From assembly GCF_019357415.1 (NCBI RefSeq), contig NZ_CP048410.1, forward strand, positions 3,250,501 through 3,314,500: a stretch of 64,000 bases of DNA, in the 5' to 3' direction. Below the pieces are notes generated by a model. That model did no database searches, was not told the origin of the DNA, and saw only the letters and a program-made list of their open reading frames with translations. The stretch's first letter is position 1. Every line of letters begins with the position of its first letter. Position numbers and translations under genes: made by a program. Below, piece after piece: positions 11,702 through 23,856 of the stretch. This stretch comes from Gramella sp. MT6. Lineage in GTDB: Bacteria > Bacteroidota > Bacteroidia > Flavobacteriales > Flavobacteriaceae.

Positions 11702-13033
11702 TTAAAAGTTAATGACACTATCCAAAGCCTCATCAGCATCTCTGTGGATAAAATTTGCCTGATAATTTAAAGTGGTTTTTAAATCACTATGTCTATATAA
11801 TTTTTGCAGCATTAAAGGGTGAATTCTATCACCTGCAATATTTCCAAAGCTATGACGGGCTATATGATTCGATAATGTTTTATCAATGCCACAGAGTTTA
11901 GCTATTCTTTTTAAATATTTATTGAGAAGTTTAGTGGTACTCTTTGTCCGCGTATAAATTTGTTCGGCTTGAGTTTGATCTACTTCCCGTAAAAAAGGGA
12001 ATAAATATCCGTTATTGAATTTCTTATCTGGGCGATAGTAATCAATTATAATCCTAGCTTTATCAGGAATTTTTAAACTTAAAGGTTTACCATTTTTTTC
12101 CATGACATAGTATAAACGGTTATCCTTGAAATCAGACCATTTTAATTTAATTACATCTGAGATTCGCATCCCGGCAAAATAAAAAGAAAACAACCATATG
12201 TTGTGAGTATGCCATATAGTTGAGTACTTCTCTAATTCGAGTGATTCTATCTTCTCAATTTCTTCTACATTCAATCCAATTTTATTACCTGAGGATATTC
12301 TAATTTTCTCTTTCTCACCAGCAAAAGGATAATATTTCTGGGCAATTACTCCTTCTTTAATTGCAATATTATAAAGAGTTCTAATGAAAATAAGCTGATT
12401 GGTTATTGTCCTTGGATTTTGATTCAAGTAAGAAGAACAGAATGTCTTATATTTTCTAATAAAAGACTCGTCAATATCGCGGAATCTTAGGTTATCATTT
12501 TTTTTAAAATATGCAACGCCATCCATCCAGTGATATTTAGATCTTCTTGCATCGCTCACTCGCTTTAACCGTCTTTGTTTAATTTCTTGGATGATTTTTG
12601 CCTTACTTCTCGAATTCTTTAGTTGTATAAATTCTTCAATATTATATAGTATTGATAACTGCGACTTAGCAACTGAAAAAACTCCCGTGTCATATTTACT
12701 TTGAATATGTTCAGTGGCAACAGTAAAGAATGATTTAGAGCCATCTGGCCCTTTTAATTTTTGTTTTATCTGCCTTGGCGTAATTTTTTTCTCTGCATTG
12801 AAATAGATATCATTGACTTCAATCATCCTTTTCATCAAAAAGTTATTTAACTGCTTAAAGTTTGGATGAGTCTTTTTAACCTTACAAGCAACATCATCCC
12901 ATTCTTTTTCAAATACAGAATGTCCCAGCCAAACATAATTCGTTTTATAATTTTCGCTAATTCTTAAGGCCAGAGGTATCCTTCCATCCTTCTTTTTCAT
13001 GTTTTTTCTCAAAACAATCTTTAAATTTGCCAT
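11702..13033 (-). CDS. Tyrosine-type site-specific integrase (Bacteroidetes type)
   Basis: A 443-residue integrase. The N-terminal arm-binding region (residues about 1-90) is followed by a SAM-like core-binding domain (about 110-250) and a catalytic domain. The catalytic Arg is in GMRISDV near residue 287, HxxR in NHIARHSFGN near 388, and the last His and nucleophile Tyr in YRHSDLKTTLNYQ near 410-421. It starts about 175 bp from the tRNA 3' fragment at 13208-13250, the usual place for an integrase that targets a tRNA gene. It lacks the additional patch typical of integron IntI. A decayed relative lies at 47444-47935. Confidence 0.93.
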   Translation of the reverse strand: MANLKIVLRKNMKKKDGRIPLALRISENYKTNYVWLGHSVFEKEWDDVACKVKKTHPNFKQLNNFLMKRMIEVNDIYFNAEKKITPRQIKQKLKGPDGSKSFFTVATEHIQSKYDTGVFSVAKSQLSILYNIEEFIQLKNSRSKAKIIQEIKQRRLKRVSDARRSKYHWMDGVAYFKKNDNLRFRDIDESFIRKYKTFCSSYLNQNPRTITNQLIFIRTLYNIAIKEGVIAQKYYPFAGEKEKIRISSGNKIGLNVEEIEKIESLELEKYSTIWHTHNIWLFSFYFAGMRISDVIKLKWSDFKDNRLYYVMEKNGKPLSLKIPDKARIIIDYYRPDKKFNNGYLFPFLREVDQTQAEQIYTRTKSTTKLLNKYLKRIAKLCGIDKTLSNHIARHSFGNIAGDRIHPLMLQKLYRHSDLKTTLNYQANFIHRDADEALDSVINF

Positions 13034-14047: not shown

Positions 14048-14183
14048 GCGTTACAACAACGGTTAATCGCCAATAAGCGGCACCGTTAGTAAGAATATAA
14101 TTAACTTGACCAACAAACTAATACTAAGCCGACAAATCCGCGTCCCTTACTCCGCCAACTGGCGATAACCGAGACCGTTGGCA
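14048..14183 (+). repeat. attC-like site 1
   Basis: It opens with GCGTTACAAC, complementary to the start of cassette 1, then AACGGTTAATCGCCAATAAG. The other arm TGGCGATAACCGAGACCGTT pairs with the first except for a short bulge, and the core ends in GTTGGCAAC at 14177-14185. The middle carries ATTAACTTGACCAACAAAC and the GCCGACAAATCCGCGTCCC stretch shared by its sister sites. Confidence 0.8.
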
Positions 14184-14209: not shown

Positions 14210-15070
14210 ATGTTTGAAATATTTAATACCAGAGAAATTGCACTATTCTTTTGGTCAATAATTATTCTGACTTGGATTTTAAGCAAAATGGAAAGTTGGG
14301 GTAGTTTTAAAAAAGTTCTCTCCACATTTTTTAGCGATAAAATTATAACTCCAATTTTACTTTCAATTATTTATGCCGAAACTATAATATTGATTTTAGC
14401 TCTATTTGATTATTGGGATCTTAAATTCTTAAAAGATACTTTATTCTGGTTTATCGGATCCGCAATTATTTCGATCTTTAATGCTAATAAAGCAACAGAA
14501 AATCCAGATTATTTCAAGAAGAATATTCTCGACAATATTAAATTCATTATAGTCTTTGAGTTCATAATAAACTTCTACACTTTACCCTTATTTTGGGAAA
14601 TTATCTTAATCCCGTTTTTATTGATAATTAGCTTAGCAGATAAAATATTTCAAGACAGAAAAGAAATTGCTACTAAAAAATTCACTACTGGAATACTGAC
14701 AATATTTGGAATATTCTTACTCTCTTTTTCAATTACGAATCTTGTAAAAAACTTCGAAGCATTTGCATCATTAAACACTTTGAAAATATTTCTTCTTCCA
14801 ATTATTCTTACAGTTTTATTTATTCCTTTTACATATTTACTTGCAGTCTATATGAAGTATGAAAATATGTTCATCTTCGTGGGCTTCCGGTTTAAGAATA
14901 AACAACAAGAGTTTAATAAAATAAAATGGAGAATATTTAAATTCTGTCTGTTCAATCTAAACAAACAAATAAAGTTAAGGAGATTGCAAAGTTTCTCTTA
15001 TATAATGTCTCTAGATGATTTAAATAAAACAATAAATGAGTATAAAAGCCCAGTTGCCAACAACGGTTAA
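14210..15070 (+). CDS. Cassette 2: multi-pass membrane protein of unknown function
   Basis: A 286-residue protein with about seven predicted membrane helices, for example IALFFWSIIILTWIL, IITPILLSIIYAETIILILA and FTTGILTIFGIFLLSFSI, and a basic C-terminal tail. I do not recognise the family. The last codons (SPVANNG then TAA) lie inside the attC-like site, so the site supplies the C terminus and the stop, a common feature of cassette genes. The start ATG is 33 bp after the cassette boundary. Confidence 0.7.
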   Translation: MFEIFNTREIALFFWSIIILTWILSKMESWGSFKKVLSTFFSDKIITPILLSIIYAETIILILALFDYWDLKFLKDTLFWFIGSAIISIFNANKATENPDYFKKNILDNIKFIIVFEFIINFYTLPLFWEIILIPFLLIISLADKIFQDRKEIATKKFTTGILTIFGIFLLSFSITNLVKNFEAFASLNTLKIFLLPIILTVLFIPFTYLLAVYMKYENMFIFVGFRFKNKQQEFNKIKWRIFKFCLFNLNKQIKLRRLQSFSYIMSLDDLNKTINEYKSPVANNG

Positions 15071-15187
15071 TCGCCAATAAGCGGCACCGTTAGAAAGAAA
15101 ATAATTAACTTGATCAACAAACCAATACTAAGCCGACAAATCCGCGTCCCCTACTCCGCCAACTGGCGATAACCGAGACCGTTACAT
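15053..15187 (+). repeat. attC-like site 2
   Basis: It opens with GTTGCCAAC (15053-15061), the exact complement of GTTGGCAAC that begins cassette 2. Arms AACGGTTAATCGCC and GGCGATAACCGAGACCGTT pair as in site 1, and it ends at GTTACATGC (15181-15189). It is nearly identical in its middle to site 1. Confidence 0.85.
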
Positions 15188-15674: not shown

Positions 15675-16489
15675 GTGAAATTAGGAGAAATAATATTCTA
15701 TTTAGCAGTTTCATTAATTGGAATAAACCTTTTATATCAACTTTTAAAGATTATGCTTAAGGGAACTAAAGCAGAAAGGGAATATGAAAAAAGAATTAAT
15801 GAAAGTCTTGCAGATGAATATATCATCGATCCAGAAACTGGTGCTAAACTTACTTTAGAAGAAGCAGAATCTGGACATTGGATTAACCATGACAACGAGT
15901 ATATCACTATCCCAGAAAAAGAAATAGAAAATTACATACTGAAGAACAAAAGGACGCCGAAAGAGCAATAAATCTTCTTAGAAAAAGTAGAGAATATAAA
16001 AGATATAGGTTCTCCAAATCAGAATTACAAATTTTAGAAAGTACAAAGATTCTATCAAAATATGATGATTGGAGTTATTCTGATTGCTTTAAAATTGAAT
16101 ACTGTGATGGTTTTATTTTTATGCCTGCTGTTGTACTAATTGATAAAGTACCAGGATACTTTGAAACTACTTATAATGAATCACAAATAATGATATGGTT
16201 GAGATTGGAAAGTAATATGGGACACTATTACTTAAGAGAAAAAACTGCAACCGAAAAGTTTTTAGATATATTCAAAAACGACGATGATATAAAAATGAGA
16301 GGTTACGAATCATTTACATTTAAAAAATCAGAAAACATTTTTAAAGTCAATCAAACTCTGAAAAAAATAAAAGGTGGTAAGGGATTAGAAATAGAAATCA
16401 TTGAAAACAATCTATTCCTAAAAACAATGAAATTCATAAATGTAGAAGAACTACTTCTGATAGAAAGCCTAGTAAAAAACATTAGCTAA
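15675..16489 (+). pseudogene. Cassette 4: one membrane-anchored protein gene split by a frameshift
   Basis: Frame 1 (15675-15971, GTG start, 98 codons) gives a membrane helix (IIFYLAVSLIGINLLYQLL) and then YIIDPETGAKLTLEEAESG. Frame 2 has no good start of its own until an ATG at 16121, yet reads sensibly from about 15893 (KLHTEEQKDAERAINLLRKS) through to the stop at 16489. Joining them near 15930 gives a single protein of about 270 residues, so a one-base change in the A-rich stretch likely broke it. Alternatively the cassette holds two overlapping genes. I do not recognise the family. The stop is right at the attC-like site. Confidence 0.55.
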
Positions 16490-16618
16490 CAACGGTTAAT
16501 CGCCAATAGCCGGTAGCGTTAGAAAAAAAATAATTAACTTGACCAATAAGCCAATACTAAGCCGACCAATCCGCGTCCCGCACTCCGCCAACTGGCGATA
16601 ACCGAGACCGTTGTAGTG
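16482..16618 (+). repeat. attC-like site 4
   Basis: It opens with TTAGCTAAC, complementary to GTTAGCTAAC that begins cassette 4. It has the standard arms AACGGTTAATCGCC and GGCGATAACCGAGACCGTT and ends at GTTGTAGTGC (16610-16619). Confidence 0.85.
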
Positions 16619-16666
16619 CAATTAACAATTGAATTGATTAAATTTCTAATCTAAAATCAGACGAAC

Positions 16667-17722: not shown

Positions 17723-17729
17723 GTTAAAC

Positions 17730-17740
17730 GCACTACAACA
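17730..17740 (+). repeat. attC-like site 5, left piece
   Basis: GCACTACAACA is the complement of GTTGTAGTGC that opens cassette 5, so it is the start of that cassette's end site. The rest of the site resumes at 18943 after the inserted IS. Confidence 0.8.
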
Positions 17741-17767
17741 AAGAACTAAGGTAAAATCCAAGTACTT

Positions 17768-18772
17768 CTAAGCTAATTTCGATATATAATTTTCCTGGTA
17801 AGAAGTTCCTGATTTAGCTATGGCAAATGCCTGTTTCAGGAGCTTATTGCACACAGCTATAAGTGCCAGTTTCTTACTCTTACCCTTCTCAACTATTCGT
17901 TCATAAATTTCCCTGCAAGCTTTATTAGTTTTGCAAGCAGTGAAACTACACATGAATAGTAAATTCCGAAGCTTTCGATTGCCTACTTTACTAATTCGAC
18001 TGCGTCCTCTTACACTGGTTCCGGATTGCCTGATCGTTGGGGTGATCCCGGTAAAACAGCAAAGCTGCCTGGCATTCTCAAAACTGGTAAATCCGTCTGT
18101 AAGCACAATTAACAACATCGCTGTCTTCTTACCCATCCCTGGAATACTAGTTAATTGCTCCAGTTGATCTTCCTGGGTTTGCCTGACTAAGAATTCCAGC
18201 TTGGTTTCAATCTGATCTAATTCCTTCTCTAATTGCTTTAGCATTCGGACGAGTGATCTACTAACAGTCTTTGAAGGTGTACCGAGAGCTTTCTCTCCGT
18301 GTATCTTATTCTTCACCGCAGTGCGTTGTTTCAAATAAAGATCCTGAAGACTTAGTAGCTGCAAACACTCTGCCTGCATGGCGTTTCTGGCTGTGTACAA
18401 AGGAACTTTTGTAGCCTGTGCATATTCACAGATCGCTTTGGCATCACTTTTATCGGTCTTGATCTTGGAGAGTTTCATCTGAATAAAACGCTTCACCGAA
18501 AGTGGATTCACAACCGATACCGTTATACCTTTCTCATATAAATACTGGGCTAATCTGTAATGATAATAACCAGTAGCTTCCATAACTACCAGGCTGTCAT
18601 TCTTAATTAACTTCAGCAAGCCTTTAAAGCCTTTTACATCATTAGAGAACTGGTCATGCCTTCCATTTTGATCAACCACATCAAAGAATGATTTACTAAT
18701 GTCTACTCCGTAAAAATGTTTAAATTTATCCATATGAGAATGATTGGAAAGAACAGCTACTTTGGTTTTCAT
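17768..18772 (-). CDS. IS110-family transposase (DEDD recombinase)
   Basis: A 334-residue protein. The N-terminal RuvC-like domain has the DEDD residues in YGVDISKSFFD, VVMEATGYY and KTDKSDAKAI. The C-terminal Transposase_20 domain has LTSIPGMGKKTAMLL, FTGITPTIRQSGTSVRGRS (with the conserved Ser) and KVGNRKLRNLL. This two-part enzyme cuts and joins DNA guided by a bridge RNA in the families studied. A second ATG 13 codons in (MDKFKHFYGVD) may be the true start. Confidence 0.95.
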   Translation of the reverse strand: MKTKVAVLSNHSHMDKFKHFYGVDISKSFFDVVDQNGRHDQFSNDVKGFKGLLKLIKNDSLVVMEATGYYHYRLAQYLYEKGITVSVVNPLSVKRFIQMKLSKIKTDKSDAKAICEYAQATKVPLYTARNAMQAECLQLLSLQDLYLKQRTAVKNKIHGEKALGTPSKTVSRSLVRMLKQLEKELDQIETKLEFLVRQTQEDQLEQLTSIPGMGKKTAMLLIVLTDGFTSFENARQLCCFTGITPTIRQSGTSVRGRSRISKVGNRKLRNLLFMCSFTACKTNKACREIYERIVEKGKSKKLALIAVCNKLLKQAFAIAKSGTSYQENYISKLA

Positions 18773-18942
18773 CGACTTAAAAACGAGATCTAGGTCTCAC
18801 AGAACTAAACGAAATTAAAGTAGAAAAGAGAGGGGATTATCATTGTTGACGGAATCTCAAGTTCCCACGGTTCATGTAATCTTATTCCTCTCTTTTGTTC
18901 TTTCTGGTTATACAATCAAAATTTAGAGAAATTAAACTTAAG
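18773..18942 (-). ncRNA. Putative IS110 bridge RNA with target and donor loops
   Basis: On the minus strand a 10-bp stem AAAAGAGAGG/CCTCTCTTTT encloses a second stem GATTA/TAATC, an internal loop and a GGAA/TTCC hairpin. The loop's left side ATGAACCGT (18867-18875) equals the flank of the insertion, ACGGTTCAT at 18943-18951 on the plus strand. Its right side CAACAA (18843-18848) matches the other flank in the opposite sense. A second loop around GAGA/TCTC has TTAGTTCT (18801-18808), matching the IS end at 17742-17749, and TTAAG (18776-18780), complementary to the other IS end. These are the four guides of a bridge RNA. Confidence 0.75.
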
Positions 18943-19069
18943 ACGGTTCATCGCCAATAGCCGGCACCGTTAGAAAGAAAATAATTAACTTGACCAACGA
19001 ACCATTACAAAGCCGACAAATCGGCGTCCCGTACTCCGCCAACTGGCGATAACCGAGACCGTTGTAGTG
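18943..19069 (+). repeat. attC-like site 5, right piece
   Basis: ACGGTTCATCGCCAATAGCC resumes the site, with the usual middle and the arm GGCGATAACCGAGACCGTT. It ends at GTTGTAGTGC (19061-19070). The arm has TTCATC where most sister sites have TTAATC. Confidence 0.85.
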
Positions 19070-19669: not shown

Positions 19670-19807
19670 GCACAACAACAACGGTTAATCGCCATTAAGC
19701 GGCAGCTTTAGAAAGAAAATAATTAACTTAACCAACAAACCAATACTTAGCCGACAACTCCGCGTCCCTTACTCCGCCAACTGGCGATAACCGAGACCGT
19801 TAGTGAC
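19670..19807 (+). repeat. attC-like site 6
   Basis: It opens with GCACAACAAC, complementary with one mismatch to GTTGTAGTGC that begins cassette 6. It has arms AACGGTTAATCGCC and GGCGATAACCGAGACCGTT and ends at GTTAGTGAC (19799-19807). Confidence 0.85.
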
Positions 19808-22205: not shown

Positions 22206-22342
22206 GTCACTAACAGCGGTTCATCTCAAATTCCGGGTTTTACAAAAAAGAATTAAATTAGATTCCTAACAAACTAAAGCGTTAGCCGACAAGTCCGCGT
22301 CCCTACTCCCGCAACTTGCGATAACCGCAAACCGTTGGCGGT
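22206..22342 (+). repeat. attC-like site 7, second subtype
   Basis: GTCACTAAC at 22206-22214 is the exact complement of GTTAGTGAC that opens cassette 7. The arms are AGCGGTTCATCTCAAATTCC and CCCGCAACTTGCGATAACCG, related to but distinct from sites 1-6. It ends at GTTGGCGGTC (22334-22343). Confidence 0.8.
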
Positions 22343-23717: not shown

Positions 23718-23856
23718 GAACCGCCAACAGCGGTTCATCTCAAATTACGGGTTTAATCGAAAAATTGTAATTTTAGAAACCAACAAACTAATGGTTAATC
23801 CGACAAGCCCGGGTCCCTACTCCCGCAACTTGTGATAACCGTAAACCGTTGGCCAC
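23718..23856 (+). repeat. attC-like site 8, second subtype
   Basis: GAACCGCCAAC complements GTTGGCGGT that opens cassette 8. The arms AGCGGTTCATCTCAAATTAC and CCCGCAACTTGTGATAACCG match site 7. It ends at GTTGGCCAC (23848-23856). Confidence 0.8.

Follow-up and report, generated by a model that had tools for sequence, protein, structure and literature searches.

An IS110-group insertion sequence of Flavobacteriaceae with a candidate bridge RNA that would read attC-like cassette sites

Introduction

In the chromosome of Gramella sp. MT6 an insertion sequence (IS) of the IS110 group splits an attC-like site, and the locus raises the questions of how such a site is recognised by the element and what kind of site it is. 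The locus lies in a stretch of 64,000 nucleotides (contig NZ_CP048410.1 of assembly GCF_019357415.1, forward-strand positions 3,250,501 to 3,314,500), here called the window, and positions are those of the window unless indicated otherwise. A preliminary description, made from the sequence of the window, had proposed a bridge RNA in which two target guides and two donor guides can be read from this single copy, and RNA-guided homing to cassette sites. Comparison with relatives led, with high confidence, to the conclusion that this is an RNA-guided IS110-group element of Flavobacteriaceae, which probably moves as a circle and whose target loop reads attC-like cassette sites.

Results and Discussion

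The insertion sequence and its transposase

The IS spans 1202 bp on the minus strand (17741-18942). Its ends were fixed from the four copies in the own genome and from tandem junctions of right end (RE) and left end (LE) in the related loci L112 and L124. The boundary is ambiguous by one base, 17742-18943 being equivalent. Target duplication was absent, and the junction reads NN before and TGTTG after the point of insertion. The search of the own genome returned five rows, corresponding to four IS copies, one of them as two overlapping pieces. In the own-genome copy L004/L005 (G000:C1:2615609-2616609) the transposase gene is interrupted and two overlapping open frames are present.

The transposase gene (tnp) was listed as an open reading frame of 334 aa (17768-18772, minus strand). 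The protein carries both IS110 domains, DEDD_Tnp_IS110 (PF01548, 79 bits) and Transposase_20 (PF02371, 78 bits), and scored 228 bits against NF033542 (IS110 family RNA-guided transposase), for which the cut-off is 140. The closest solved proteins by sequence were the transposases of ISCro4 (136 bits) and IS621 (134 bits). Translation probably starts at ATG 18733 and not at the listed start, because the last helix of the RNA described below (18757-18762) overlaps the first codons of the listed frame; the resulting 321 aa is the length of many relatives. The non-coding DNA measures 170 nt upstream of tnp (209 nt to the likely start) and 27 nt downstream, giving a long LE and a short RE. A non-coding region (NCR) of the IS1111 type, downstream of tnp, was not found in these 27 nt. 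Likewise, the longest exact inverted repeat between the outer 45 nt of the two ends was 7 nt, and the subterminal inverted repeats of 11-13 bp expected of IS1111 elements were not seen there.

Guide segments and covariation with the target

The IS110 element and the four guide-like segments of the preliminary description are all present in the sequence. On the minus strand, the left target guide (LTG) ATGAACCGT at 18875-18867 is identical to the left flank at 18951-18943, and the right flank TTGTTG (17741-17736) has its complement in the right target guide (RTG), CAACAA at 18848-18843. The left donor guide (LDG) TTAGTTCT at 18808-18801 is identical to the right IS end (17749-17742), and TTAAG at 18780-18776, complementary to the left IS end CTTAA, is the proposed right donor guide (RDG). 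When the NCR was shuffled 100,000 times, a junction-anchored left match of 9 nt occurred 77 times, a right match of 6 nt 9,215 times and the two jointly five times. In the window copy the left match is far above chance, and the right match alone is within chance.

Relatives were collected in order to follow the guides beyond this copy. Matches at E <= 1e-60 were found in 42 of 299 genomes of the family. The best 79 of 224 loci from a scan of named genomes were combined with the four own copies to 83 records. Judged by the record titles, nearly all belong to genera which we take to be Flavobacteriaceae; two metagenome-assembled genomes are labelled Saprospiraceae (L122) and Bacteroidetes (L145), and the nearest relatives are from Christiangramia. 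The LTG was scored in 72 of the 83 records. Nine were left out for lack of a readable guide or a left flank of 12 nt, together with two tandem copies in which the left flank is another RE. These two, L112 and L124, have RE-T-LE junctions (AGTTCTTCTTAAG) as left flanks and are tandem copies or remnants of such.

The LTG was identical to its own left flank at 7.43 of 9 positions on average. Over all guide-flank pairings the mean was 5.41, and the observed value was attained in 0 of 20,000 permutations. After collapsing the copies to 21 guide classes the values were 7.08 for own and 5.30 for permuted pairs, again with 0 of 20,000 reaching. For positions -9 to -4, apart from the invariant -6, kappa between guide and flank ranged from 0.69 to 0.91; it was 0.49 at -3 and close to zero immediately beyond the guide, at -12 to -10. 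Descent was controlled for with a transposase tree of 71 copies, from which edge-disjoint pairs differing in guide were taken. Own pairing was favoured over swapped pairing in 17 of the 22 pairs, with one against (L140/L150) and four neutral (p = 1.4e-4); L088/L096, L102/L104 and L141/L149 are clear cases. The pooled contrast was used, as per-position sign tests (treekit) had too few pairs among those listed. Covariation of the LTG with its target is statistically well founded, and the expectation that the flanks of other copies vary together with the loop was borne out.

These results bear on the alternative that a folded attC-like hairpin is recognised by the transposase protein without a guide, the guide matches being relics of earlier recombination or of common ancestry. 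The targets are structured and the insertion position is fixed, as this alternative would have it. The IS110 and attC lineages are perhaps both inherited vertically within genera, in which case descent would account for a degree of matching, and the four neutral contrasts and the opposing one can be counted in favour of the alternative. However, sister elements with different guides have correspondingly different targets in the 17 favourable contrasts, and the match stops sharply at the edge of the guide. In addition, relatives of the IS110/IS1111 type are RNA-guided by experiment, according to the accessible text of PMC11187229 and PMC11208160. Recognition by protein alone is very improbable, and guidance by the RNA is the reading followed here.

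The insertion position is constant. All four own-genome copies were found at one position of an attC-like site, with the left flank GATGAACCGT and the right flank TTGTT followed by differing bases. In a census of the genus the LE sequence gave 34 matches, spread over 14 of 24 genomes, and 30 loci were fetched. Judged by eye and including the own copies, 27 of 29 recognisable left ends lie in the same attC-like arm; the exceptions are L220 and the fragment L238, and L241 was unreadable. Copies with the same loop in unrelated sites, a possibility raised in the preliminary description, were thus not the pattern in either set. A second copy of the own site within about 2.5 kb, in the same orientation among the matches listed, was present in 27 of 70 loci and absent in 43. 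Viral contigs gave 21 pattern matches, with no relative among them.

Of the 73 right flanks scored, 67 start with TTGTT, the constant part of the site. For this count 82 copies were tried (all but L091) and the RE pattern was used without look-ahead. The counts for promoter, LDG, right-flank composition and folding are based on ends from an RE pattern with look-ahead, which is biased towards TTGTT. The RTG has CAACA in nearly all listed loops, and one covarying change was observed in L088, where AAACA is found together with the flank TGTTT. In 65 flanks the bases following TTGTTR are mixed, so that the end of the RTG roughly coincides with that of the constant part of the site. Site position and the covariation of guides with flanks support the proposed homing to attC-like cassette sites under the guidance of a putative RNA.

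The donor side was scored in 71 loci for agreement of LDG and RE at the variable core, and five LDG/RE types were observed. The type TTCAGTTCT/CTCAGTTCT was found in 51 loci, TTTAGTTCT/CTTAGTTCT in 16 and ATCAGTTCT/CTCAGTTCT in two, and TTCAGATCT/CTCAGATCT and TTTAATTCT/TTTAATTCT were each seen once. The variable core positions of LDG and RE change together, and this covariation is statistically supported as well. The claim that all four guides can be read was confirmed for the LTG and the LDG, and by one covarying change for the otherwise near-constant RTG, but the RDG is without independent support. The RDG is the weak segment because CTTAAG is palindromic and nearly invariant, and because neither of the two changed left ends, GTTAAG in L087 and ATTAAG in L111, is accompanied by a fitting change in the RDG.

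RNA fold and junction promoter

The core of the predicted bridge RNA covers 18757-18905 on the minus strand and consists of a target loop and a donor loop with six helices. A single-sequence fold of the window NCR was no better than shuffles (z = 0.34) and was for that reason not used as support; support for the fold comes from the alignment of relatives. The alignments were hand-picked, with 36 of the 83 records in an earlier version and 34 in the final one (L087 and L126 left out). The six-helix fold of the 34 sequences has 31 pairs, with 98.5% of cells paired. Twelve pairs (81 cells) changed on both sides, compared to 7.3 pairs and 22.6 cells in shuffles, and none of 500 shuffles reached these values. 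Sliding the helix partners destroyed the covariation signal, a comparison in which the fold is favoured over slid versions by having been derived from the same alignment. In one internal loop the LTG lies opposite the RTG and in the other the LDG lies opposite the RDG, and both loops are closed by covarying helices (e.g. TTC/GAA, CAC/GTG, ATC/GAT and TAC/GTA). The two loops of the preliminary description are unpaired in the covariation-supported fold; the fold of the single sequence is unremarkable. A further helix between AGAAAGAAC and the LDG, suggested by RNAalifold, was dropped because none of its eight pairs changes on both sides.

Joining of RE to LE would create a promoter of the Bacteroidetes type (TTG-N20-TAAGTTTA). 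The candidate -33 element TTG lies in the RE (17759-17761, minus strand) and the -7 element TAAGTTTA in the LE (18933-18940, minus strand); joining would place them 20 nt apart. The -7 element is TAAGTTTG/A in 64 of 69 loci. In 68 of 69 loci a TTG precedes the TAAGT box of the LE, at 20 nt in 67 of them and at 21 nt in one. Shuffling of the RE gave an expectation of 5.3 loci at that spacing, with a maximum of 13 in 200 trials, and the promoter geometry is well outside this range. The Bacteroidetes promoter consensus is TTTG/TANNTTTG, and G is rare at -10 and -9, as given in the available part of PMC6847099; the AG in the -7 element is for this reason not ideal.

The following mechanism is proposed. 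The IS would excise as a circle in which RE is joined to LE; the RE-LE junctions observed are those in the tandem copies L112 and L124. The joined ends would act as a promoter for transcription of the bridge RNA and then of the recombinase. The donor loop would recognise the joined ends. In the target loop, the LTG would read the lineage-specific L'' arm (7-9 nt) and the RTG the constant AACA of the R'' side, and the RNA-guided recombinase would therefore place the element between R'' and L'' in a single orientation. This would split the site, probably with loss of cassette mobility there.

A number of observations weigh against this account. The last two bases of the LTG do not track the target (kappa 0.06 at -2 and 0.18 at -1) and are thus not read in this way. 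Three of the 17 favourable tree contrasts are at the smallest possible value, 1. L220 interrupts an attC-like site midway, at GGCTTAGTTCTT, where the sequence is similar to the RE; this is perhaps an LDG-directed event. Six of the 73 right flanks do not start with TTGTT, namely those of L098, L106 and L108 (TCTTA), L132 (TAGTT), L144 (TTGTC) and L150 (TTGCT). The RDG varies independently of the LE, with no supporting covariation. A two-base core common to donor and target, as in IS621, was not demonstrated, and the two junctions have a single T in common. In L087 the 5' strand of helix 4 is missing, and both L087 and L126 are outside the final alignment. Rfam gave nothing at the gathering score and one chance microRNA match (E 0.63). 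Finally, an empty allele of the IS-bearing cassette of the window was not found across the 24 genomes of the genus. In L098, L106 and L108 the RE is followed by TCTTA, which resembles the start of the LE, and these flanks may result from aberrant excision or from resolution of tandem copies.

The attC-like sites

The attC-like unit was matched 26 times in the own genome. The inferred target AACAACGGTTCAT, with up to two mismatches, was found 60 times forward and 63 times in reverse, compared to 36 and 38 for a reversed control. All four exact matches abut attC-like sites. Nine of the 18 one-mismatch matches are at attC-like sites, three more are in the same clusters and six are elsewhere.

In the window, the sites are on the plus strand. 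Intact sites were identified at 14055-14179, 15059-15183, 16488-16612 and 19677-19801. The distal part of the split site (L'' to R') extends over 18943-19063. The proximal part is the R'' arm CGCACTACAACAA at 17729-17741, whose complement is found in the cassette start GTTGTAGTGC (16610-16619). Two sites at 22212-22335 and 23726-23849 belong to a second subtype (AACAGCGGTT). Sites similar to this second subtype (AACAGCGGTTCATCT..., GCCGT arms) host the copies L082 and L084. Near the start of the cassette cluster, another tyrosine recombinase (PF00589, 48 bits, in an open frame of 476 aa) is encoded at 11753-12184 on the minus strand.

The sites are probably recombination sites of an integron-like system. 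Arrays in one orientation, with 43, 33, 40 and 41 sites, were found in stretches of G312, G306, G304 and G319, in each case 3' of an integrase gene. Smaller numbers were found in a stretch of G303 (6) and in three own-genome stretches (6, 5 and 4). Over 154 cassettes, the seven bases that follow GTT agree with the reverse complement of the cassette end at 5.75 of 7 positions, compared to 2.62 for permuted ends (5,000 permutations, maximum 3.06). Among the 24 genomes of the genus, 23 have a single homologue of the integrase (E <= 1e-40), and in the family sample a homologue is present in 147 of 299 genomes (E <= 1e-60). The attI-like motif ATATA[AG]C-N2-GT[TA] was found within 60 nt of the integrase stop codon in 21 of 22 scored loci of the genus (23 loci in total) and in 24 of 28 of the family. 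At the own-genome locus L033/L189 (G000:C1:3511509-3529900) and the genus loci L190-L211, a XerA-type integrase is followed by an attI-like ATATAAC-N2-GTT immediately after its stop codon and then by arrays of cassettes with complementary ends.

Four genomes of other genera, picked because IS and integrase are near each other, had same-strand repeats, not all of them attC-like (52 in G113, 14 in G024, 11 in G061 and 0 in G274), and two of the four had the attI-like motif. Joined empty sites of relatives had a folding z below -2 in 28 of 52 loci, two tandem copies included, compared to 1 of 66 controls. In the own genome, the bottom strands of six empty sites had modest z values (-0.5 to -3.0), and each was more stable than the corresponding top strand.

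It could instead be argued that the sites are palindromes resembling repetitive extragenic palindromic (REP) elements or miniature inverted-repeat transposable elements (MITE), in which case the element would be RNA-guided but the link to integrons wrong. IS110 elements often target repeats such as REPs, as described in the accessible text of PMC11208160. The integrase scored 198 bits against the integron integrase family TIGR02249, below its cut-off of 265, and lacks an IntI-specific stretch: its match to IntI4 is in two pieces without about 45 residues. Single-strand recombination is tied to a helix gained by IntI in the abstract of PMC7790495. The integrase did score 221 bits against NF040815 (site-specific tyrosine recombinase/integron integrase), with a cut-off of 220. 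The window's own cluster (3.26-3.27 Mb) and the one at 2.61-2.62 Mb are distant from the integrase, which is adjoined by the cluster at 3.51-3.53 Mb. Against such palindromes stand the four long arrays in one orientation, the complementarity of cassette starts and ends, and the single integrase gene per genome with the attI-like motif next to it. The REP/MITE explanation is unlikely, and cassette sites are favoured.

A wider reading is that Flavobacteriaceae carry an overlooked integron class, with a XerA-like integrase without the IntI4 stretch, an attI directly 3' of it, arrays of at least 40 cassettes and cassette-specific arms. A dedicated IS110 family, with guide RNAs that follow the drift of the attC arms, would track and split these sites across the family and probably lock them. 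We give this wider reading an even chance.

The literature searched, with subscription journals mostly outside it, gave no recognised description of an IS110-group element in cassette sites of Flavobacteriaceae, nor of such integrons there. The available part of the IntegronFinder 2.0 paper reports a single complete integron for Bacteroidetes proper (Salinibacter ruber) and otherwise, from an earlier study, only elements with an integrase and no cassettes (PMC9024848). The Bacteroidetes/Chlorobi group or Bacteroidota are among the integron carriers in PMC2426708 and PMC8618304, in the accessible portions of which Flavobacteriaceae are unnamed. The locus exposes cassette arrays, accompanied by an integrase and an attI-like motif, in a part of the Bacteroidota that appears thinly covered in the portions of the literature available. 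It also offers a natural retargeting series, in which the insertion point of one IS lineage stays the same and the guides shift with the sites of the host, and rules for reprogramming of bridge RNAs should therefore be readable from genomes.

Comparison with known systems

The element is a variant and not a new principle, since IS1111-attC elements with seekRNAs are already known; the target system is the less expected part. Guidance of IS1111 elements to attC sites by seekRNA is described in the available text of PMC11187229, and RNA-guided attC targeting is what the element would share with that group (ISKpn4, ISPst6). The parasitism of cassette sites by an IS110-group lineage is a parallel to it. 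In contrast to the IS1111-attC group, the NCR lies upstream of tnp, with a short downstream part and no comparable terminal inverted repeats, and the targets, attC-like sites of Flavobacteriaceae, differ in their arms and in the integrase.

Bridge RNAs of IS110 elements are the subject of PMC11208160, and IS621 and ISCro4, as far as the accessible text goes, resemble the element in their domains, the long LE, target and donor loops that guide both strands, and a promoter at the RE-LE junction. The element differs from these in that the similarity is only 134-136 bits, cassette sites are targeted rather than REP elements, the CT core was not demonstrated and the promoter is of the Bacteroidetes type.

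The target system is similar to chromosomal integrons in having an integrase gene, an adjacent attI-like site and an array of cassettes that end in imperfect palindromes with AAC/GTT boxes. It differs from these in the XerA-like integrase without the IntI4 residues and in the position of the array, 3' of the integrase gene. Sites of chromosomal integrons have the consensus GTTRRRY, whereas in the sites described here the cassette-specific arms adjoin GTTR.
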